A DNA stretch of 64,000 bases from Synechococcus sp. Nb3U1 (lineage in GTDB: Bacteria; Cyanobacteriota; Cyanobacteriia; Thermostichales; Thermostichaceae): NCBI RefSeq assembly GCF_021533835.1, contig NZ_JAKFYQ010000001.1, positions 1,928,427 through 1,992,426 of the forward strand, read 5' to 3'. A model generated the notes under the pieces. That model was not told the origin of the DNA. It did no database searches and worked only from the letters and a program-made list of their open reading frames with translations. The stretch's first letter is position 1; every line of letters begins with the position of its first letter. The translations under genes were made by a program, and so were the position numbers. Positions 1,085-52,566 of this stretch are shown here, piece by piece.

Positions 1085-1170
1085 GCATAACGGTGAAGTT
1101 GTGCGGCGGCAGATAAGCTTGAACTCTCACCAATAACCTCTGTACCGTCCGCACCAACGCAGTGTTAGCT
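1085..1170 (-). other. attC site of cassette 12 (restriction-modification)
   Basis: On the minus strand the site runs from R'' AGCTAAC (1170-1164) to R' GTTATGC (1091-1085), 86 bp. The inner arms are imperfectly complementary (GTTGTGCGGC near 1098 with GTCCGCACCAAC near 1147). It is the last attC visible before the left edge. Confidence 0.85.
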
Positions 1171-3130: not shown

Positions 3131-3217
3131 AGCTAACGTTCGCGCTCACCGGACGCAGATAAACTTTGCAACCAACCGACAGTACTGAGTCGTTCCGGTG
3201 CAGCGCGGTTGTTATGC
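3131..3217 (-). other. attC site of cassette 11 (NTF2-like)
   Basis: R'' GCATAAC (minus strand, 3217-3211) and R' GTTAGCT (3137-3131), 87 bp. The arms CGCGCTCACCGGA and TCCGGTGCAGCGCG pair imperfectly. It closely resembles the attC at 11771-11858. Confidence 0.9.
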
Positions 3218-3221
3218 GGCA

Positions 3222-3626
3222 CTAGGTCATTGAAATCACTGGGTAATTATAACTTTCCTTGACGACTAAACCATCTTTCCAATAACCGATCGAAAGTTGA
3301 TTGCTTTTGTTATCAATGATCTGTTCACCATATCTAATGGTGAAATCGTTGTACCAATTGGAAACTACAACGAAGTCATAACTGTGATCGGCTGAGACTG
3401 CAATATCTTGACTAATCAATCTAGACTCTCTAAACTCGACCAACATTTCGTTGAAAAAGATAGCTCTTCCTTGGCGGCAGGCTTCTTTCCCTGTGGTGAT
3501 CGTACCGTCGCCTTCAATCATCACAGTATCCTCAGCATAGTATTTTTCCAAGGCTACTGATGTTTGAAACGTAACAACTAAATTGTTAATGTCTGCCAAC
3601 GCGGCTTGTAGTTCTTCAATCGTCAT
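3222..3626 (-). CDS. NTF2/SnoaL-like small protein (integron cassette)
   Basis: A 134-residue soluble protein starting at the ATG at 3626 (MTIEELQAAL). The sequence pattern, an N-terminal helix followed by alternating beta-strand segments with GDGTITTGKEA, fits the NTF2-like / SnoaL / DUF4440 fold; no catalytic activity can be assigned. The same frame stays open far upstream into the next cassette, but that extension crosses the attC at 3733-3792 and is not coding. It is the only gene of cassette 11. Confidence 0.65.
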   Translation of the reverse strand: MTIEELQAALADINNLVVTFQTSVALEKYYAEDTVMIEGDGTITTGKEACRQGRAIFFNEMLVEFRESRLISQDIAVSADHSYDFVVVSNWYNDFTIRYGEQIIDNKSNQLSIGYWKDGLVVKESYNYPVISMT

Positions 3627-3732
3627 AAGTAAAATAGTAAGGTTTTGGGAATTCAGAGCAAATTTTAGCCTACTGTGTACAATCGCGTCCCACAAATAAT
3701 ACTCCGATTGCGCCCTAGCTGTAATCGAAGCT

Positions 3733-3792
3733 GCATAACGCTCAGCATCAGCGGCGGCGTGCAGCGCCGTCCGCTGCAACCGTTTGTTGGGC
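3733..3792 (-). other. attC site of cassette 10 (NurA-HerA-methyltransferase)
   Basis: A short 60-bp site: R'' GCCCAAC (3792-3786, minus strand) and R' GTTATGC (3739-3733), with strongly complementary arms (CAGCGGCGGC / GCCGTCCGCTG). Its R'' differs by one base from the complement of the cassette start core GTTAGGC at 8243-8237, the only mismatch in the array. Confidence 0.85.
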
Positions 3793-3831
3793 GTCGCTGT
3801 CCCGGATTTATGCCCACCGCACCGATGAGAG

Positions 3832-4938
3832 CTAGTGACGGATCGCCCATACGTCATACTCGACCATCGGTTTGGACTTGATGCGCAGGAAGGCATCCGC
3901 CTGGCGCTTGCCTTCTGTGGCAGACCCGGCCTCCCTGATGGTGGTGATGCGCCAGCCGCTGTCACTGAGGGAGCTCTTGATGAGGTCGAGCGGGTCGGCG
4001 CGCCTGCCTGTGATGCCGCCGAACCGGATGACCATCTTGGCATCTTCCGCGCACACGTTCTCCGCGTTGCGCCATACCTGACGCAGATCGGCCGCAAAGT
4101 CCTCAGGGCTCGAATGAACGACCTGATCGCGGTTGGTGTAGTCGACAGCGTCGGGGCCGCCGACGAACCAGTTGCGAAGCCACTGGTCGGGGATGTAGGT
4201 GCGCATACCATAGTACGGGGGTGAGGTGATCACCCAGTCGAACCGAGTGTCCGGGTTTTCAGGTTGGAGCGCCTCGGCCTCCCGGCTGTCCGCCAATCGC
4301 ACGGCTCCCGTGATGTCGAAAAACGTTCCGTAGTAGCGTTTCGCCCGCCGTTCAATCACGGCCAAGACATCGATAGGCTCAGGCACAAGCCCTCGCTCCT
4401 GCCAGAAGCGTGTCGCATAGGCAGGCTTAGGGGCGTAGGTGCGGGGGCATTGGTTGGAGAAGTAGCTCGGGAAGGTCTTCTGCTTCGGGCCATGCAGCGC
4501 ACCCAGGACGATGCCGCGGAGTGCGATGCGGGCGTCCGTGGTGCAGTCCTCCAGAAATGCCTCCCGGAATCGACACAGCGCGTCCAGCACTGTCGGGTGA
4601 AAGCACAAGCGCCAAAACTCACCCGTCGGGATATGACGCGCCTCACGTTCGGTCAGAATCTTGCGTGCTTCGGCAAGGATGTCATCAACGGTGGCCGTCG
4701 CGAGCTTGGATGCCGTAATAGCTACGGCAACGGGGCTGGAATCTACCCCAAGGGAGCGGAGGCCGACAAGTCGTGTAGTGAAATTGGTGGTGCCCCGGCC
4801 GCAGAATGGATCCAGCACGACCTGGCCAGCCCGAGCATGCTGCTTAAGAATGCCAAGCGGGAAATCCAGCGGGAACATCGTGAAGTACGGACAAATCCCA
4901 TTCAAGACAGCATCTATACGCTCGGGGTTAACGGTCAT
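3832..4938 (-). CDS. DNA methyltransferase of the NurA-HerA cassette
   Basis: A DNA methyltransferase of 368 residues if it starts at the ATG at 4938. That start overlaps the HerA stop as ATGA and is preferred to the GTG at 4992 or the ATG at 4956, both inside herA. The SAM-binding motif I DPFCGRGTT (residues 43-51) precedes the catalytic motif TSPPY (238-242). S-P-P-Y is most often seen in N4-cytosine enzymes, but adenine cannot be excluded. It is the third gene of a NurA-HerA-methyltransferase cassette and is GC-rich like its two partners. A self/non-self marking role for the linked HerA-NurA pair is an inference from context. Confidence 0.82.
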   Translation of the reverse strand: MTVNPERIDAVLNGICPYFTMFPLDFPLGILKQHARAGQVVLDPFCGRGTTNFTTRLVGLRSLGVDSSPVAVAITASKLATATVDDILAEARKILTEREARHIPTGEFWRLCFHPTVLDALCRFREAFLEDCTTDARIALRGIVLGALHGPKQKTFPSYFSNQCPRTYAPKPAYATRFWQERGLVPEPIDVLAVIERRAKRYYGTFFDITGAVRLADSREAEALQPENPDTRFDWVITSPPYYGMRTYIPDQWLRNWFVGGPDAVDYTNRDQVVHSSPEDFAADLRQVWRNAENVCAEDAKMVIRFGGITGRRADPLDLIKSSLSDSGWRITTIREAGSATEGKRQADAFLRIKSKPMVEYDVWAIRH

Positions 4939-7049
4939 TTCCTGACTCTTATCCATGTTTTCCCGGTACTCGGTTTCTTGAAAGTCTCCCACGCCGTAGA
5001 TTGTTGTCCGAACACAGCGCTCATCGCCTTCGACACCAGGTTGTAAGCAAACTGACGACGGTCATCCAAGTGTTCTGGCAAGTGATCCATTAGAAACTGC
5101 TGAACCCCATACCACGGTATGCCATTCTGCGCTTCGAGTTTCTGACGAAGATCGTCATTTTGCCTGAAAGCCTCAATGGCGGCCTGCTCGATGGCCGCCA
5201 TAACATCCATTGACTCGGTTTCTGTGGCTTCCGTTTCTTCGGGAAACAAACTGCTTACGTCCGGGGCTTCAGGAATTCTGGCTGTCGTCGTAGTCTGCCC
5301 CGCCATTGCAAATTTGCTGCACAGCGTTTGTGCGTAGGTGTGACCGGCGGGTTGGTTGTAGCCAGGGTCCCGCAACGAGAACATCTTCTCGAACGACAGG
5401 GCGCGAAGGCTGACCGGATAGGGCTTGCCTCCAACAGAACTCCAAAATACACCTTGCCCCGGGATGGGCTCGTTGAGCAGCGAGCTCAACAAGTCATCAC
5501 TGAAATGGGCATTGGCCCGCTTCAAGGACGTGAGATCCGCCGCTGACAGCAGGTGGAAGATGAACCAGTTGTCGCCCTGGCTGAGGATCTCGACAGGAAT
5601 ACTGCCCGGCTGCTGGGTAATCAGCAGCGCGCCGAGATCGTACTTGCGACCTTCCTTCACCCAGGCGATATAGGGCTCGGCCGCTGGTGCGTTCTCGTTC
5701 AGTACAGACTGCGCTTCTTCGACGACAGCGATCGTTGGGATCGTCTTTGGATCGGCTGCCGTGAATTCCTGCTGGTTGCGGTCGAAGATCCGGCGCAGGA
5801 TCAGGCCGGAGAGCACCAGGGATTGACCGCCACGCATCTGGGAGACGTCGATGACGCACAGTTTCCCTTCGGAGAGCGCATGAACCAGCATGTCCATGAG
5901 CTGACTGCTCTTGTCATGCAGCATCTTCACGATGGCCGTCATGTTGCCTCTGGCCGCTAGGGCCTCAGCCTCCTGCCGCTGAGGATTGAGATCGAGCAGT
6001 CGGCAAATATCGTCAAGCGGCGTAGTGTTGCCGTTGGTGTCGATCAGATTGACCAACGACTCCCACCGGTCTTGCGGAAGCCCGCGCAGCTTCCGAACGT
6101 TCTGCTGCTCCTGGCGTTCTGGTCCGAGCGCGATCGAAATCACGTCTCCTAGGCGTAGGCGGCGAATATCCAGCTTGATGCCGCCAGCCACGAACGATTG
6201 ATAGAAGGGGCTCGGATTTTTCCTGTCGGTGAAGACGACGAGCTTGTCCTCAAGAGCAGGGACGTCGCAAAGGCCGGGGCGACCCTTGTCGTCAGGCCAG
6301 AAATACTCGCCATCAGGGTCGAAGATCACCGTGCCCACGGGCACCTGCTTGCCGGCGCGCTTGGTGACGAAGGGCGTCGTCTCGTAGAGTTTCGAGAAGA
6401 GCAGCTTGTTGAGATTGGATTTGCCGAAGCCCGCTCTGGCAAAGATGAAGCTGCGGCGAGACACCAGCGACTCGATCGGAAAGCGGACCAAGACCTCCGG
6501 GGCAACCACCTGCATCCATTCCTGCGACTGGAATGACTTGCTGCCCGTGGCATAGATGTACTCGCCAAAGGCCAGATGGCCGATGGGAGCGCCGTCAATG
6601 TTGTGACCGGCGATCTCGCGCAGCACCTCGTCATTTGGAAAGGCTACCTTGCTACCGACATGGGGGAGCCGGCGATGCGAAGGGACGAAGGTCAGCCCCT
6701 TCCCATTCTTGCGCAACACGCCCAACACACGGATGTTGACCCGGTACTTGAGATACTGCTCGCGCAGGTCTTCGGGGATCGGCCGGTCTTCGCGGACCGC
6801 GCGGATGTTGAACTCCTCGCCGGAGCCGAAGGACAGCTTGCCCTCCGAGGAGAAAGAGGCGATGCGGCCCAACACCGCCTCATCGGGCGTCTCCAATTGG
6901 ACGAGGAGGAACTGCCCGTGCATCGGGATGTTCTGGAACTCGTTCCGGTACGGCAACACGAGGTCGGCGTGGAACTCCATGCCTCCTTGCTGGAAGCCCC
7001 GGAAGATGCCAACGACCTGTTCCCTGGGAAAGAGTTGGATTTCTGCCAT
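4935..7049 (-). CDS. HerA-family hexameric ATPase/DNA translocase
   Basis: A 704-residue HerA/FtsK-superfamily ATPase. An N-terminal region compatible with the HAS-barrel is followed by Walker A ARAGFGKS (residues 204-211), a DPDGEYFW segment (244-251) characteristic of HerA, and Walker B AVVEEAQ (441-447) with paired glutamates. HerA pumps DNA and acts with the nuclease NurA in archaeal end resection and in several bacterial anti-phage systems. Here nurA lies 11 bp upstream and a DNA methyltransferase overlaps the 3' end by 4 bp, so the three are probably co-expressed. Base composition is GC-rich compared with neighbouring cassettes, pointing to a different donor. Confidence 0.88.
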   Translation of the reverse strand: MAEIQLFPREQVVGIFRGFQQGGMEFHADLVLPYRNEFQNIPMHGQFLLVQLETPDEAVLGRIASFSSEGKLSFGSGEEFNIRAVREDRPIPEDLREQYLKYRVNIRVLGVLRKNGKGLTFVPSHRRLPHVGSKVAFPNDEVLREIAGHNIDGAPIGHLAFGEYIYATGSKSFQSQEWMQVVAPEVLVRFPIESLVSRRSFIFARAGFGKSNLNKLLFSKLYETTPFVTKRAGKQVPVGTVIFDPDGEYFWPDDKGRPGLCDVPALEDKLVVFTDRKNPSPFYQSFVAGGIKLDIRRLRLGDVISIALGPERQEQQNVRKLRGLPQDRWESLVNLIDTNGNTTPLDDICRLLDLNPQRQEAEALAARGNMTAIVKMLHDKSSQLMDMLVHALSEGKLCVIDVSQMRGGQSLVLSGLILRRIFDRNQQEFTAADPKTIPTIAVVEEAQSVLNENAPAAEPYIAWVKEGRKYDLGALLITQQPGSIPVEILSQGDNWFIFHLLSAADLTSLKRANAHFSDDLLSSLLNEPIPGQGVFWSSVGGKPYPVSLRALSFEKMFSLRDPGYNQPAGHTYAQTLCSKFAMAGQTTTTARIPEAPDVSSLFPEETEATETESMDVMAAIEQAAIEAFRQNDDLRQKLEAQNGIPWYGVQQFLMDHLPEHLDDRRQFAYNLVSKAMSAVFGQQSTAWETFKKPSTGKTWIRVRK

Positions 7050-7060
7050 GTTGTGCTCCC

Positions 7061-8203
7061 TTATCCGTACCGGCGTTGCGCCGGGTCGGCATCCTGAAGC
7101 TGAAATGCGTCCAAGGTCCCCGCGTCGCCGCCGAGACTTGATCGGACGCCTTCGTAGATGAAGTCCTGCAGGATGTCGAAATCGAAATCGACCAGGGCCG
7201 CGTTTTCATGTGCCTTTTGCAGGCAACGCGGATAGTGCGGCACCGGGAAGCCGTTGATCGCGTCGGCGAGCATCGAACCGAGGATGGCTTGAGCCTCGCT
7301 AACTTGTGGAACAAAGATATCCACCGGCCACACGGGGTCGCGTCGGTGCGACCCGAACTTCACTAAAAACATCTTGCCGCCGACGAACTTGTTGATCTCC
7401 CCACCCTCACCAGCGCGGTCATCGCCTCGGGCGAATTCCAACCACACGTAGGCTTTCTCCTCTACTTCGCGTGGCACCTCTACATAGGCGGGATAGTCGG
7501 TCTGAAGAACGCCTTCCAACGCCATTGCCAAGCGGTATCGGGACAGCACCTTGCTGTGCTTGGCCACACCAGCGAGATACACGCGACGACGGCTCTTGCT
7601 CCACTGTGCTTTGATGCGCTCCTCAATACCTTGGAGCAGTCGCTGGAACAGGTCCTTGGCGAAAACCTTGCTGCGCAGTAGGCCGTCACAAATGATGAGT
7701 GTGTCGGTACCGTAGTCCTTTCCGAGTATTTTGAACAAGATGGCCCACTCGACTAGCTCCCGGTAGACCTGCACCCAGCTGGGAGACACAGGCTTGTTTT
7801 TTTCTGGTCGTGGGAAGACGGGAGAAAGGTTTTGAAGGGATGCTACGTCCAAGTACGCCATCATCTCGCCCAGTGCCGTGCGAGGTGTTCCATCAGGCTC
7901 GAATTGGCGATTGTCGAGCTTGTCGATGGGTGTCGTCGGCGAGACCGCCTCCAGGCAGTACTCGTTGTTGCTGCTGTCCACCACCCTGACCAGCTGTATG
8001 AGGAAGGGATCGAACTGGAGCTGGTTGTTGCCGCCATCGGTGGCGACCAGCGAGATCGACGTCGTGGCACGTGGTTGGATGCGGCGTGTGGCGCTCTTCA
8101 GGGGGCGAATCTCTTCCCGCAGTGCATCCAGCACCCATTGGTCGGTGCCGATGCAGTCTGCGATTGCCTCCCTCAGTTGGGCTTGGCTTGCCGGGTCGAT
8201 CAT
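7061..8203 (-). CDS. NurA-domain nuclease
   Basis: A 380-residue protein with NurA-family features: an aspartate motif near the N-terminus (VATDGGNNQ, D56), a second one (TLIICDGLL, D173) and the downstream GVAKHSK segment (about 212-218). NurA is an RNase-H-like, metal-dependent 5'-3' exonuclease/endonuclease loaded on DNA by HerA. It is the first gene of cassette 10, starting about 35 bp after the attC core at 8237-8243. It probably forms a complex with the following HerA. Confidence 0.8.
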   Translation of the reverse strand: MIDPASQAQLREAIADCIGTDQWVLDALREEIRPLKSATRRIQPRATTSISLVATDGGNNQLQFDPFLIQLVRVVDSSNNEYCLEAVSPTTPIDKLDNRQFEPDGTPRTALGEMMAYLDVASLQNLSPVFPRPEKNKPVSPSWVQVYRELVEWAILFKILGKDYGTDTLIICDGLLRSKVFAKDLFQRLLQGIEERIKAQWSKSRRRVYLAGVAKHSKVLSRYRLAMALEGVLQTDYPAYVEVPREVEEKAYVWLEFARGDDRAGEGGEINKFVGGKMFLVKFGSHRRDPVWPVDIFVPQVSEAQAILGSMLADAINGFPVPHYPRCLQKAHENAALVDFDFDILQDFIYEGVRSSLGGDAGTLDAFQLQDADPAQRRYG

Positions 8204-8236
8204 CTTCCAAGACCTCTCGGTCGGTCAGATAGTGAC

Positions 8237-8323
8237 GCCTAACGGCTCAAATCAGCGGCAGCAGATAACTCTGAACTCAGCAGCAACGGCTTTCAACCGT
8301 CCGCTGCATTTGAATTGTTGTGC
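8237..8323 (-). other. attC site of cassette 9
   Basis: R'' GCACAAC (8323-8317, minus strand) and R' GTTAGGC (8243-8237), 87 bp, with arms CAGCGGCAGC / CCGTCCGCTG. The R'' is the exact complement of the cassette 9 start core at 8910-8916. Confidence 0.87.
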
Positions 8324-8909: not shown

Positions 8910-8995
8910 GCACAACGGTGAAGCTCAACGGCGGCAGACAACCTTTGCATCACCACCAATGTCTCGGCTCCGTCCGTTGCAGCGCAGTGTTAGCC
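8910..8995 (-). other. attC site of cassette 8 (membrane protein + toxin-antitoxin)
   Basis: R'' GGCTAAC (8995-8989, minus strand) and R' GTTGTGC (8916-8910), 86 bp, with arms near GCTCAACGGCGGC and CCGTCCGTTGCAGC. R'' is the exact complement of the cassette start core at 10373-10379. Confidence 0.88.
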
Positions 8996-9040: not shown

Positions 9041-9301
9041 TCAGCTGCAATGCATCACCGCCAGAATAAGAATGTAGTCCGGCTCAATCGTATAGAGAAT
9101 TCCATACGGAAACCTGCGTGTCATACATTGTCGAACGTCCTCATCGATAGCAACGTAGCGAGTAGGAGATTCTCTAATACGATAAACTGCATCCTCAACA
9201 GCATCAATAAACGCCTGTGCCACCTCAGTCCGTTGTTCTGCATAATATTGAACAGCCTCAGCATATTCTGTGAGAGCTTCAGGATGAAAAACATACTTCA
9301 T
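9041..9301 (-). CDS. RelE/ParE-family toxin, C-terminally truncated by a TGA
   Basis: An 86-residue toxin of the RelE/ParE superfamily (MKYVFHPEALTEYAEAVQYY...), translationally coupled to its antitoxin by an ATGA overlap at 9298-9301. The conserved C-terminal strand ends ...VMHCS followed by TGA. Reading on in the same frame gives EPGYWKSRR before a TAG, which looks like the GYW-containing tail normal for this family. A single CGA-to-TGA (Arg-to-stop) change would explain it. Loss of the tail probably reduces or abolishes toxicity. Known members either cleave mRNA on the ribosome or poison gyrase; which applies here cannot be told. Confidence 0.8.
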   Translation of the reverse strand: MKYVFHPEALTEYAEAVQYYAEQRTEVAQAFIDAVEDAVYRIRESPTRYVAIDEDVRQCMTRRFPYGILYTIEPDYILILAVMHCS

Positions 9302-10372: not shown

Positions 10373-10498
10373 GGCTAACGACCAAGCTCAGCGACCGCCG
10401 TCGGAAACGCCCGGTCGGCTGCAACAGTCGCTGCCAAATTACCCAAACCGTCCAACTGCCCAGCGGGGCGGCGGTTCGCTGCAGCGCTCTGGTTAGGC
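10373..10498 (-). other. attC site of cassette 7 (126-bp type)
   Basis: R'' GCCTAAC (10498-10492, minus strand) and R' GTTAGCC (10379-10373). This is a long, GC-rich 126-bp site nearly identical over its interior to the 126-bp attC at 15431-15556. Confidence 0.9.
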
Positions 10499-10824: not shown

Positions 10825-10911
10825 GCCTAACGTTGCTGTTCAGCGGTTGCGGATCAATCTTGCTCCCCTACAGCCAGAACTCACCAATCCGTTGCAACAG
10901 CGTTGTTAGCT
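10825..10911 (-). other. attC site of cassette 6
   Basis: R'' AGCTAAC (10911-10905, minus strand) and R' GTTAGGC (10831-10825), 87 bp, with arms GTTGCTGTTCAGCGG and CCGTTGCAACAGCG. R'' is the exact complement of the cassette 6 start core at 11133-11139. Confidence 0.87.
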
Positions 10912-11230: not shown

Positions 11231-11701
11231 TTACTGCAGAGGAACACAATATTCCATAGTGTGCTCGTAGTAGACTTCAAAAATAGGGCGTTGCGAGTCT
11301 ATGATCAGTTGATGTTGCGGTATGTACTCCGTAAAGAAACGCCCGATAGTCTCTCCAATTGTAGCGGAGTTTTTGTCAAGCGATAGGACTGCATAACGTC
11401 CACCTGGTAGTTGCTTTGTTGAGATGTCTCCTGTGTTAGGGGATACTGCTGCAGTGAGCTCCAAGGCGCACTCATAACCGACCAATTGCGTATCATTTGT
11501 GTGTGGGATGCCAATCACCTTTAGTGCGGATGGATCATAACCGTGTTGTTGAACCCAATCTTTGATGCGTTGAAAACCGTCCCGAATTTTTTCGATGTAA
11601 TTGCCTGTAGTTTGCTGTATTTGGCAAGAAATATAAACAACGAAAACAGGTGGCAAATCTTGGAGAGTAACGTGTAATGATTGTCCAGAAAAAACGCTCA
11701 T
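11231..11701 (-). CDS. GyrI-like / AraC effector-binding domain protein
   Basis: A 156-residue soluble protein from the ATG at 11701 (MSVFSGQSL); an in-frame start at 11722 adds 7 residues. The pattern of paired beta-alpha-beta halves, ending with IFEVYYEHTMEYCVPL, fits the GyrI-like small-molecule-binding domain (SHS2 fold). Relatives bind hydrophobic ligands or gyrase; the ligand here is unknown. Sole gene of cassette 5. Confidence 0.65.
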   Translation of the reverse strand: MSVFSGQSLHVTLQDLPPVFVVYISCQIQQTTGNYIEKIRDGFQRIKDWVQQHGYDPSALKVIGIPHTNDTQLVGYECALELTAAVSPNTGDISTKQLPGGRYAVLSLDKNSATIGETIGRFFTEYIPQHQLIIDSQRPIFEVYYEHTMEYCVPLQ

Positions 11702-11770
11702 TAGAATCTCCTGTACTTGCAATTTGGTAGGTATCGCTCACAACTGTTAGCAATCGAATAGGGCACAGCC

Positions 11771-11858
11771 GCCCAACGTTCGCGCTCACCGGACACAGAT
11801 AACCTTTGCAACTCAACCAATTATGTTGACACGTTCCGGTGCAGCGCGGTTGTTAGCC
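11771..11858 (-). other. attC site of cassette 4
   Basis: R'' GGCTAAC (11858-11852, minus strand) and R' GTTGGGC (11777-11771), 88 bp. The interior nearly matches the attC at 3131-3217. Confidence 0.9.
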
Positions 11859-13237: not shown

Positions 13238-15382
13238 TTACAACCAGAATGGCACGTCCCCTTCTGAATCCTTTGGTTTGATGCCAAGCAGTGAAAATTC
13301 TCCAATCTTGTCGCTGTAATGAATCGTCACTGGCAAACGCGGCTCTCTAACCGAACCATAATGCAAGAGCGTCAGCGATAGCGCCGAATGAATAGCATTT
13401 TCGATTGAGAAGGATAGTTCTGTCCTGATTTGAAGCGGACATGGTGTGCTGCCTTTGAAAGGAGGCAGTGAAGAAACCAAGAATGCTTCCGTATCGCTTA
13501 TTTTAAATGCTGTCCCCTTCGGCGGTCTGTCTATAGCGGAGGCGGATGTGCTTTGATAAAGACGGGGGGCTCCAGATTTGATTACTTCAACCAGATGGAA
13601 CTCTGCACCAATCTGTTTTGCCCATTCCTTCAATGCCGATTTTTCTCCGCCACGAAATTGTCCGTCACGATGAATCACGACTCGTTTGCCTTGAAATTCC
13701 TTGAGAGGGAAAAGACTGCGCAGAATACTGCTTGGTATTGTTTCTCCTTCAATCGGTGCATCGTGGATAATGTATCGTAGAAATTGACCATCGCTGAAAT
13801 AGACTCTTGCCATGGCAGTCGCGTTCATGGTTCCCGATAACTTTTGTTTCGCTCTACGAGCAATATCAATCCCAACGACAATATCAGCGTAAGGAAGCGG
13901 TTTCGCTAAAACAAATGGAACGTTCCTTGTTTTTGCTAATATACCCAACACGATATTGTCCATCGCATATTTTTCAGAGAATGTATCTTCATAGACAACT
14001 TGGCTCGGGATACCAAGTCGCATTGTCAATGACTTGAAGACATGATACATGCTCGCTTCTTCGCCTTCTTCCCGCTCGTCGTGGTATGCACTTCCAGGGA
14101 ATAGAGCAAGAAAAATGTCAGGCTTTGCCGATTCGAAACAGTTTATTGCGTTTTCCAAATTTGCTCGCGAAAGTCTTTCGATCTTCTGTTGACGTTGTCC
14201 ATTGACTTCAACTGATTGAATAGAGAAATTCAATTTCTCCAACGCGGCTTTGAGCTTACGTAGGAACGTCATCAATGCTTGCTGCGCAACTTGCGATGAC
14301 GCGTTAATTACCCCAATTTTTATAGGGTGTTTTTTGTCAGGAAATGCATTTGAACGTTTAAATGCGCCATGCTTTTCCAAGCTCTCATAAATGCGTTGCC
14401 CTTGATGAATTTTATCGTCGCCAACACGCAATTTGGGCTCAAAGGCCACATCGTGCGGTCCCAAGAATGCTTGCGGCAATGATTCAGAATTGAAACTGTT
14501 GGCGAGAATTCCGTTGTTTTTACCAATAGCGGCAATTTCACGAACAAGAGTGTATCTTGTTTGTGGATCAAGCCGCAATGCTTCGGAAACTTGACGTGGC
14601 TTCACTTTAAATTTCTTGAGATCACCCATTCGAACGACAGGGCGTAACATACTTGCAATATAAATATATTGGCTTGTGCGAGTTTCAATTTTAACAGTCA
14701 GTTCATCATCAGGAGCGCGACTAATCAAATTGCGTGTCATCTCATCGCTGGATTTACTGAGAAGCCGTTCACGCATTTCGCGAACATTGCCAGTAATCTC
14801 GACGATTGTCCCTTTGAAATCCTTCGCTGTCACAGCGACCATCATTCCGACAAGTTCTTGCGGACTTTTCAGGGTGGCGGCAAACTCATGGAGTAATTGA
14901 GTATGAAAAATGTTGGACGAAACAGTGATGGAAATCGCTGGTTCGTTGTTCACTGCCCAACCGCGTAAAGCGTAGTCGCGGTCAACTCGGATTTTGCCGA
15001 AATTCTGTTTTTTCGGCTCAAGCACTCTCCGAATTTCTGCTTGGTGGTTTGCGAGCAAACCGCGAGCTGTGAATTCGCCCTGCTCCCAAGCCGAAGGTTC
15101 CCATTTTGTATTAAGAGTAACACTCAGCACATCATTTAATCGTTCTTCTGTCCATAATTGTTTCAGAAATTCTTCAATTGCTTCATCTTGGGGCGGCTTG
15201 TCTGTGATGATTTGACCACCGCACCATACCCAATTCCCACCAAACTTATTCCGCAAGCGATATGCTAACTTTCCGCCGATTGCCGATACATCATCGCTCA
15301 CCGCTTTGATTGTATAGGCAGACAGCTTGGGCAACGCCTGAGGAATAACAGGAAAGACATCAACGTAGATAATCATATCCAT
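13238..15382 (-). CDS. Prokaryotic Argonaute (long, catalytic-type)
   Basis: A 714-residue long pAgo. The C-terminal PIWI domain holds a full DEDX tetrad: D506 (GIDIARR), the glutamate finger in PIEGETIP (E545 or E547), D573 (HRDGQF) and D691 (HYSDKIGEF). The MID region (about 415-495) keeps residues typical of 5'-phosphate guide binding, including Q461, K471, N476 and K484. The N-terminal half (1-350) fits the N, linker and PAZ regions. Catalytic long pAgos use short DNA or RNA guides to cut invading or plasmid DNA. It is the only gene of cassette 3 and stops 27 bp before its attC core. An ATG two codons downstream is an alternative start. Confidence 0.9.
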   Translation of the reverse strand: MDMIIYVDVFPVIPQALPKLSAYTIKAVSDDVSAIGGKLAYRLRNKFGGNWVWCGGQIITDKPPQDEAIEEFLKQLWTEERLNDVLSVTLNTKWEPSAWEQGEFTARGLLANHQAEIRRVLEPKKQNFGKIRVDRDYALRGWAVNNEPAISITVSSNIFHTQLLHEFAATLKSPQELVGMMVAVTAKDFKGTIVEITGNVREMRERLLSKSSDEMTRNLISRAPDDELTVKIETRTSQYIYIASMLRPVVRMGDLKKFKVKPRQVSEALRLDPQTRYTLVREIAAIGKNNGILANSFNSESLPQAFLGPHDVAFEPKLRVGDDKIHQGQRIYESLEKHGAFKRSNAFPDKKHPIKIGVINASSQVAQQALMTFLRKLKAALEKLNFSIQSVEVNGQRQQKIERLSRANLENAINCFESAKPDIFLALFPGSAYHDEREEGEEASMYHVFKSLTMRLGIPSQVVYEDTFSEKYAMDNIVLGILAKTRNVPFVLAKPLPYADIVVGIDIARRAKQKLSGTMNATAMARVYFSDGQFLRYIIHDAPIEGETIPSSILRSLFPLKEFQGKRVVIHRDGQFRGGEKSALKEWAKQIGAEFHLVEVIKSGAPRLYQSTSASAIDRPPKGTAFKISDTEAFLVSSLPPFKGSTPCPLQIRTELSFSIENAIHSALSLTLLHYGSVREPRLPVTIHYSDKIGEFSLLGIKPKDSEGDVPFWL

Positions 15383-15430: not shown

Positions 15431-15556
15431 GCATAACGATCAAGCTCAGCGACCGCCGCCGGAAACGCCCGGTCGGCTGTAACAGTCGCTGACAGATTAC
15501 CCGAACCGTCCGACTGCCCAGCGGGGCGGCGGTTCGCTGCAGCGCCCTGGTTAGGC
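15431..15556 (-). other. attC site of cassette 2 (126-bp type)
   Basis: R'' GCCTAAC (15556-15550, minus strand) and R' GTTATGC (15437-15431). The interior is nearly identical to the attC at 10373-10498 although the associated genes are unrelated. Confidence 0.9.
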
Positions 15557-16014: not shown

Positions 16015-16111
16015 GCCTAACGACCAAGCTCAGCGGCGGCGGGGGCCGAGTGAGCTACATGGCACGAAAAGTCTACACGGCCCCGCCGTCGGCTGCAGCG
16101 CCTGGTTCGGC
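16015..16111 (-). other. attC site of cassette 1
   Basis: R'' GCCGAAC (16111-16105, minus strand) and R' GTTAGGC (16021-16015), 97 bp. R'' is the exact complement of the first core at 16541-16547. The C-terminal codons of the cassette 1 gene overlap the right part of this attC. Confidence 0.88.
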
Positions 16112-16856: not shown

Positions 16857-18122
16857 GTGCGCTTCTACCTGCATTTCTGTAACAAGTATGGGCATCAACC
16901 AGGGGATCCTGGGAGTCTGCCGCTTTTTATCGCAAAACTGGCATCCAAGGGACAGACGGTGGAACAACAGGCGGAAGCGCAGCGGGCAGTTAGCTCCCTC
17001 CTCTCGCCATCTATTGAACTAAGGGGGAAGGCCCAGGCCCAGTCCGAAACCATAGAACTAGTAGTCGCTGACGAGAACTCAGTCGCTCCCATCGCAAAAG
17101 TCATACCGACGGTGGCCAAGGGGGGCTTACTCCCCGACAAGAAAAAACCGGATCCGATACGGGATCCTTGGCAGGAAGTGGCTGACAAGCTCAAAGCACA
17201 GATTATGCTGCGCCATTACTCACCCAGAACTCTAAAGGCTTACTCAACCTGGATGTGGAAACTCTGTCGGTTTTTAGACAATCAGCTACCATCAGAGGTC
17301 ACAAGCCAAGATGTCCAGCGGTTCCTAACAGATTTGGCGGTACGGCAGCAGGTCTCTGCCTCAGCTCAGAATCAAGCCTTTAACGCCCTACTGTTTCTCT
17401 TTCGACACGTCTTCGAGCGTGAGCTTGGAAACTTTGCGGATACCCCCAGAGCCAAACGCAGGCAGTCGATACCCACAGTGCTTTCTCGCTCAGAAGTGGC
17501 TTCACTCATCGAACAGTTGCAGCCACCCTATCGATTGATGGGGAAGCTCCTTTATGGATGCGGTTTGCGTCTTTCCGAGGCGCTATCTTTGCGGTTGCAT
17601 AATTTCAACTTTGATACCGGTATGCTCTCGGTACAGTTTGGTAAGGGGAGGAAATCTCGGACAGTGCCATTACCAGAGAGTATTCAGGGTGAGATTCAAG
17701 CGCAAGTAGAGCGCATCAAAGCTCTCCATCAGGAGGATTTAGCCAGGGGGTATGCCGGAGTATTTATGCCAGGAAACTTTGAAAAGAAAGCCAAAGGAGC
17801 GGCGCGAGAGCTAGCCTGGCAATGGTTTTTCCCTGCTCCCAACCTGACAAGGGTTAAAGAAACAGGGGAACTGCGTCGCTACCATGTGCAAGAAACCGAT
17901 ATTCAGCGAGCCATCAAAGCCGCTGCCTTGAGGGCCGGGATCCTGAAGCGAGTTTCACCGCATACCTTACGCCACAGCTTCGCCACCCACCTGCTGCAAG
18001 CCAATTACGATATCCGTCAGATCCAGCAGATGTTGGGTCACAGTGATGTCCGCACCACGATGATTTATACCCACACCATCAAGTCCGACCTCAAGCCGCT
18101 AAGAAGCCCATTGGATCTGTGA
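16857..18122 (+). CDS. intI: Integron integrase IntI (N-terminal in-frame TGA upstream)
   Basis: Tyrosine recombinase of 421 residues from the GTG at 16857. The catalytic set is complete: R238 (GLRLSEAL), K263 region (GKGRKSR), H369-x-x-R372 (HTLRHSF), H395 (LGHSD) and Y404 (MIYTH). The extra IntI-specific patch absent from XerC/XerD is present (about 300-328, ending LAWQWFFPAP). The same frame continues upstream to an ATG at 16764 (MSGFPEVDPRFDEVV...), interrupted only by a TGA at 16836-16838. The upstream residues run straight into the SAM-like N-terminal domain, so the original gene probably started at 16764 and suffered an Arg-to-stop change; whether the shorter form works is unknown. There is also an unusually long segment (about 50-105) before the core-binding domain. 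It diverges from the cassettes, the canonical integron layout. Confidence 0.92.
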   Translation: MRFYLHFCNKYGHQPGDPGSLPLFIAKLASKGQTVEQQAEAQRAVSSLLSPSIELRGKAQAQSETIELVVADENSVAPIAKVIPTVAKGGLLPDKKKPDPIRDPWQEVADKLKAQIMLRHYSPRTLKAYSTWMWKLCRFLDNQLPSEVTSQDVQRFLTDLAVRQQVSASAQNQAFNALLFLFRHVFERELGNFADTPRAKRRQSIPTVLSRSEVASLIEQLQPPYRLMGKLLYGCGLRLSEALSLRLHNFNFDTGMLSVQFGKGRKSRTVPLPESIQGEIQAQVERIKALHQEDLARGYAGVFMPGNFEKKAKGAARELAWQWFFPAPNLTRVKETGELRRYHVQETDIQRAIKAAALRAGILKRVSPHTLRHSFATHLLQANYDIRQIQQMLGHSDVRTTMIYTHTIKSDLKPLRSPLDL

Positions 18123-51030: not shown

Positions 51031-51087
51031 GAACAAATTGTGAAGCTCCCCGCCCTACTTCAACTCAGGTGATAACATTACACCACG

Positions 51088-52566
<1,479 letters not shown>

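Follow-up and report, generated by a model that had tools for sequence, protein, structure and literature searches.

Genes for a NurA-like nuclease, a HerA-like translocase and a DNA methyltransferase (MTase) lie packed together in the cyanobacterium Synechococcus sp. Nb3U1, in a stretch of 64,000 nucleotides (the window, to which coordinates refer unless a locus is named). This raises the question of whether the three form one unit in which the MTase marks self DNA and the other two proteins degrade DNA that lacks the mark. By analogy, the unit is probably a methylation-marked, Tdp-like DNA-degrading defence module that has spread horizontally and is carried here as one integron cassette. The three genes are:

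7061-8203, minus strand: nurA-like nuclease gene, 380 aa; closest fold TdpB (AlphaFold model)
4935-7049, minus strand: herA-like translocase gene, 704 aa; FtsK/HerA ATPase and a possible C-terminal winged-helix-like domain (about residues 612-704)
3832-4938, minus strand: DNA methyltransferase gene, 368 aa; motif I DPFCGRGTT, motif IV TSPPY; PF01555

A sequence-only reading had placed three packed genes with 11-bp and 4-bp junctions at 3733-8243; coordinates and junctions were confirmed, as were the strands of the genes. The NurA-HerA gap is 11 bp (7060-7050) and the 4-bp HerA-MTase junction is an ATGA overlap (4938-4935), the ATG at 4938 (368 aa) being preferred as MTase start over the mechanically chosen GTG at 4992. 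In Pfam, HerA matches DUF87 (65 bits, cut-off 23.2) and the MTase PF01555 (46 bits, cut-off 26.7), while NurA stays below threshold (16.1 bits, cut-off 21). Its identity is nonetheless confirmed by the fold of its AlphaFold model (pLDDT 79.6), for which TdpB is the closest solved structure (Z 22.8), ahead of the NurA proteins of Pfu (3taz, Z 13.6) and Sulfolobus (2ygk, Z 12.5), and by a profile search that matched TdpB at E 5e-4. For HerA, the model is poor except in the C-terminal half of the ATPase and the last domain (mean pLDDT 57.6); the C-terminal block itself is modelled at pLDDT of about 90 and gives weak winged-helix matches (Z about 5), on the basis of which residues 612-704 may be winged-helix-like. 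Residues D56, D173, D289, D295, H332 and E333 of NurA are invariant in 26 sequences, as are the Walker A motif GxGKS (207-211) and Walker B residues E444/E445 of HerA in 24 sequences and the PYFTMFP, DPFCGRGTT and TSPPY motifs of the MTase in 22 relatives. All three genes read as intact, catalytic motifs included. The MTase, the sole member of its family in the genome, carries an m4C-type signature, which hints at its target base. An open reading frame at 3222-4211 was rejected as a single gene, being a shadow frame that runs through an attC site into a small downstream cassette gene.

The limits of the unit are those of an integron gene cassette. In integrons, attC sites are cut at G^TT, and the two ends of the roughly 4.4-kb cassette put forward from sequence alone, 3733 and 8243, turned out to coincide with the R' boxes of two attC sites (GTTATGC, 3739-3733, and GTTAGGC, 8243-8237), which bound a cassette of 4.5 kb. 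The elements of the array in the window are:

3739-8242, minus strand: integron gene cassette, about 4.5 kb long, delimited by the cut points of the preceding attC and of its own attC, as set by the R' boxes
3733-3792, minus strand: attC of the NurA-HerA-MTase cassette, 60 bp, downstream of the MTase gene (48.9 bits and E 3e-10 by a model in which this site is included)
8237-8323, minus strand: attC of the preceding cassette, upstream of NurA (73.2 bits); left boundary in reading direction
16857-18122, plus strand: ORF of the IntI integron integrase (TIGR02249, 374.5 bits against a cut-off of 265), divergent from the array
16015-16111, minus strand: attC nearest the integrase (covariance model)
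15431-15556, minus strand: attC upstream of the Argonaute cassette (covariance model)
11771-11858, minus strand: attC closing the Argonaute-containing stretch (covariance model)
10825-10911, minus strand: attC (covariance model)
10373-10498, minus strand: attC (covariance model)
8910-8995, minus strand: attC (covariance model)
3131-3217, minus strand: attC (covariance model)
1085-1170, minus strand: attC (covariance model); the array extends about 11.3 kb further left, beyond the edge of the window

With attC sites on both sides, the orientation of the array and an integrase at its head, the cassette fits an integron gene cassette. The integrase has no internal stop, its profile match spans 17184-18116 and Pfam assigns it to the tyrosine recombinases. 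The covariance model was built from ten sites of the array in the window, where it finds 10 attC and one weak site, all on the minus strand. A further six minus-strand sites (40-71 bits), none of them in the training set, were found left of the window, as far as position 1917149 of contig C1; the array spans about 28 kb. When single attC strands were folded, the z-scores were modest (-1.1 to -2.1). Between attC sites the array also carries an Argonaute (13238-15382; PADLOC pAgo, 915 bits), and further members are a ParE toxin (9041-9301), a Cass2/GyrI-like protein (11231-11722) and, beyond the window and at or close to the left extreme of the array (locus L072, 4208-6451), a C5 DNA methylase with a helix-turn-helix and a SinI-type endonuclease. 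NurA has an attC and two ORFs (80 aa and 83 aa) upstream of it. Promoter and terminator scans gave results at chance level only, and the cassette has no evident promoter of its own. Defence cassettes of chromosomal (sedentary) integrons are likewise bounded by attC, belong to an IntI-driven array and share their orientation with their neighbours, the difference here being an oversized cassette of three genes and 4.5 kb in a cyanobacterium. Five congeneric genomes hold no intact integron integrase, one having a copy with an internal stop and two having fragments.

Two other observations were made in the window. Beside a type II MTase (1900-2976), a presumed restriction endonuclease (1201-1894) is split into two ORFs at an exact 28-bp tandem duplication (1541-1568 and 1569-1596), so that this type II restriction-modification (R-M) cassette may be reduced to its MTase. 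A TPP riboswitch (58 bits) lies at 51080-51181.

The origin of the unit is best read from its relatives. The NurA-HerA-MTase block (3839-8204) is 89% identical in DNA to a locus of Thermomonas flagellata, to which nothing else in the window's first 19 kb aligns, and in a NurA tree the window protein pairs with that of Thermomonas (100/100) inside Pseudomonadota. The dN/dS values against Thermomonas are 0.04 for NurA, 0.06 for HerA and 0.18 for the MTase, and the unit is, as judged from these sequences, under purifying selection. An 89%-identical block with dN/dS of 0.04-0.18 also means that the three-gene unit is not a chance assembly, and dS of 0.4-0.5 suggests that the transfer, or the divergence of the donor, is not very recent. 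The GC-rich composition had been taken as a sign of a distant donor, which proved a weak argument: GC content is 58-61% in the cassette, 47% in the remaining array and 56% in the chromosome beyond it. It is the NurA tree and the DNA identity, not GC, that indicate a foreign origin, and the best explanation of the sequences appears to be capture from a pseudomonadote lineage as one integron cassette. In 53 relatives the covariance model found no attC, although, having been trained on this array, it may miss other attC types.

A NurA scan of genome contigs gave 53 loci spread over many phyla, which show that the synteny is not unique to this genome. A MTase of the same family lies directly downstream of HerA in 25 of the 40 evaluable loci (those with complete NurA-HerA and enough downstream sequence), in Pseudomonadota, Verrucomicrobiota, Bacillota, Acidobacteriota, Armatimonadota, Chloroflexota and Sumerlaeota among others. 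The association extends to presence in genomes: in a sample of 369 genomes from the class of a Methylococcus genome, unselected for the unit except for this seed, NurA occurs in three and a full-length MTase (at least 445 bits) in the same three, one of which has the order MTase-NurA-HerA; without the seed both stand at 2 of 368 (Fisher p 1.5e-5). Divergence of NurA, HerA and MTase is correlated, with Mantel r of 0.85-0.89 for the MTase (0 of 2000 permutations). The distribution is patchy throughout (3/292 cyanobacterial genomes, 2/247 in the Acidobacteriota sample, 3/369 in the class), and records of plasmids and phages gave distant HerA matches only.

Such a pattern bears on the possibility that the genes encode a housekeeping pair for double-strand-break repair, in which HerA-NurA resects DNA ends next to an unrelated MTase. 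Studies of repair in archaea and bacteria have indeed dealt with HerA-NurA (PMC9960219), and the archaeal and Deinococcus pairs share the combination of nuclease and translocase, but they have been studied as repair complexes with no MTase and their structural match to the window NurA reaches at most Z 13.6, against 22.8 for TdpB. No Mre11/Rad50 or SbcCD gene adjoins the unit in the window; for the relatives the listing covers the commonest 25 families of neighbours. With its patchy distribution, horizontal transfer and tight co-occurrence with the MTase all speaking against it, a repair role is highly improbable.

The loci that depart from the common arrangement are informative about the MTase. 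Six of the 15 exceptions tested have a divergent MTase of the same family (about 45% identical) elsewhere in the genome, in several cases no more than 16 kb away from NurA. In two Nostocales, HerA is adjoined by a convergent MTase of the D12, Dam-like type. Seven NurA-HerA loci have no adjoining MTase of the family and none genome-wide either, several of these genomes being incomplete. At two loci that lack the MTase, HerA is followed by a DUF3223 gene (L012, 3549-4295; L014, 7073-7819). In a relative from the Acidobacteriota sample, DruA (DUF4338, E 1e-87) lies directly upstream of NurA instead of the MTase, forming a DruA-NurA-HerA row on one strand (L081, 6754-11200) whose NurA and HerA are 34% and 47% identical to those of the window. 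In a metagenome-assembled genome (MAG) of Cellvibrionaceae, the divergent MTase and HerA are both frame-shifted (L023, 6101-7183 and 11154-13266), as if the system had decayed jointly, or possibly through assembly error. The NurA tree requires 9 changes of partner type against a shuffled mean of 15, so partners are inherited but also switched. An exchangeable DNA-modifying partner of this kind would fit self-marking.

The same loci give some room to a defence nuclease that is independent of methylation, in which NurA-HerA would be directed at DNA ends or at some structure specific to infection, and the MTase carried in the same cassette would do something else. Some loci lack a linked MTase, the methylase of the similar Thermus operon is nearly dispensable for transfer (PMC7767461), and HerA-SIR2 and HerA-DUF4297, to judge by the abstracts of two reports, work without a modification enzyme (PMC11291478, PMC12198126). 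However, roughly half of the exceptions show a replacement of the MTase and not its loss, and both the correlated divergence and the perfect co-occurrence of NurA and MTase in one unselected sample are at odds with an unconnected MTase, which makes this reading unlikely.

Marking followed by degradation has its closest parallel in the TdpABC system. The best PDB sequence match of HerA is TdpA (E 1.6e-22 with a single sequence, 2.9e-24 with a profile), the next being an archaeal HerA at 1e-14, and TdpB holds the same place for NurA, by sequence as well as by structure. PDB entries 8wet, 8wfd and 8y1k belong to the TdpABC system, and Thermus antranikianii is presumably the source of TdpAB. TdpABC reportedly protects against phages: TdpC introduces phosphorothioate marks, and DNA that lacks them is degraded by TdpAB. 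TdpC we assume to be a member of the DUF4338 family. What is shared is a modification enzyme together with a HerA-NurA nuclease, TdpA and TdpB being the best PDB matches of the two window proteins. The mark, however, is phosphorothioate in TdpABC and would be methylation here, HerA is 118 aa longer than TdpA, with the winged-helix-like domain at its C-terminus, and NurA is only 18% identical to TdpB in the structure alignment. No match to DruA/DUF4338 (PF14236) was found in the genome, the cassette carrying the MTase instead. The reference for TdpABC is An et al. (2025, Nat Chem Biol, doi 10.1038/s41589-024-01832-w), whose title and DOI are also given in PMC13251355. HerA-SIR2 (Nezha) and HerA-DUF4297 likewise use a HerA-family hexameric ATPase that drives a partner nuclease or effector, but here the partner is NurA, with a MTase in addition, and HerA matches them far more weakly than TdpA; the ten neighbouring ORFs scanned gave no match to a SIR2 or DUF4297 partner.

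A second parallel comes from Thermus. In T. thermophilus HB27, an operon of the element ICETh1 encodes a type IIG enzyme, NurA (377 aa), TdtA (TTC1879) and an N4/N6 methylase (410 aa) (PMC5365140). This tdtA operon (TTC1877-1880) shares with the window the order NurA - HerA/FtsK - N4/N6 methylase, similar sizes of NurA and methylase and a mobile-element context, a likeness of layout and setting; T. antranikianii is among the best TdtA homologues (PMC5365140). Since the same gene order has been described there, the unit is not categorically new. That the combination could not be matched to any named system, as the sequence-only reading had it, is therefore not upheld: the order is that of the Thermus operon (PMC5365140) and the NurA-HerA pair is closest to TdpAB in the PDB. 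What stands of that reading is a compact conserved unit, present in many other genomes and among defence genes, to which the relatives add an exchangeable partner. The literature covered, from which most subscription papers are missing so that absence proves little, names no defence system of HerA, NurA and methyltransferase.

The gene order is thus already known but the role reported for it in Thermus differs, namely DNA donation, and a donation module is a main rival, along with the methyl-independent nuclease. On that account, HerA, like TdtA, would export chromosomal DNA with the help of NurA, the MTase being accessory. The shared gene order in ICETh1 supports it, as do knock-outs of tdtA, nurA and the type IIG gene, which abolish donation or reduce it by orders of magnitude (PMC5365140; PMC7767461), whereas loss of the methylase is tolerated with minor effects on transfer (PMC7767461). 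However, the first gene of the Thermus operon encodes the type IIG enzyme Tth111II, and the operon is part of an ICE located at a tRNA gene, while at the window locus there is no type IIG enzyme upstream of nurA or elsewhere beside the unit, no ICE was seen and the window has no tRNA. Moreover, relatives have restriction, BREX and DISARM genes as neighbours, one copy being set within a phage structural module, and the effect in Thermus could itself be a by-product of a defence nuclease. Donation is quite unlikely as the function of the window unit.

The surroundings of the relatives point to defence. Matches of neighbouring genes include BrxC, BrxH, DrmD, DrmMI, HsdM, GajB-like UvrD helicases, WYL regulators and DUF3223, and neighbours are often of BREX, DISARM, type I R-M or Gabija-like kind, which describes occurrence at the loci and not enrichment over background. 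DUF6079/BrxC genes are divergent from NurA in Methylococcus (L010, 5452-9771) and in a Burkholderiaceae MAG (L022, 5456-9181). A BREX-related capture system with HerA reported in 2026 (PMC12839542) was considered and set aside; its description mentions no NurA and most loci are without its other genes, although DUF6079/BrxC adjoins the unit in two loci. On a viral contig (L082, 1079-9672) the NurA-HerA-MTase row lies between genes whose sequences read as terminase-like and portal-like, and this copy is apparently phage-borne defence cargo.

The mechanism proposed for the methylation-marked module, self-marking by the MTase and shredding by HerA-NurA, is drawn by analogy with TdpABC and archaeal HerA-NurA. 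The MTase would methylate a short motif in the host chromosome. A hexameric HerA ring would translocate on double-stranded DNA and feed it to a NurA dimer that cuts both strands, as HerA-NurA of Thermococcus kodakarensis does (PMC12977600). Methylated self DNA would be spared, either because it is not threaded or because it is not cut; invading DNA that lacks the methylation would be degraded. The module itself spreads horizontally. We infer complex formation, DNA degradation, a methylated motif, inhibition by methylation, an anti-phage effect and expression from the integron. Some observations sit uneasily with this scheme. Strict self-protection is poorly matched by the tolerated loss of the Thermus methylase (PMC7767461), the simple version of methylation marking is weakened by the loci that have no MTase, and a single effector that reads different marks is hard to explain when NurA-HerA stays more than 80% identical across a change of MTase subfamily.

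A wider proposal is a general NurA-HerA 'shredder' class in which one core would work with interchangeable marks (TSPPY-type methylation, Dam-like methylation, and a DruA-family partner or phosphorothioation), the mark being sensed independently of any single motif and the whole travelling as integron cassette or phage cargo. This is possible, though we lean slightly against it.

If the methylation-marked reading is true, the TdpAB nuclease, the puzzling methylase of the Thermus operon and the NurA-HerA pairs that look like orphans would be members of one family of marked-self DNA-degrading systems, and whether different DNA marks can govern the same HerA-NurA core would become a testable question. 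A second point of interest is the packaging: one 4.5-kb cassette holds the whole unit, in a cyanobacterial integron whose other cargo includes an Argonaute and R-M genes. It appears that a complete unit of several genes can be packed into one integron cassette and pass from Pseudomonadota to Cyanobacteriota.
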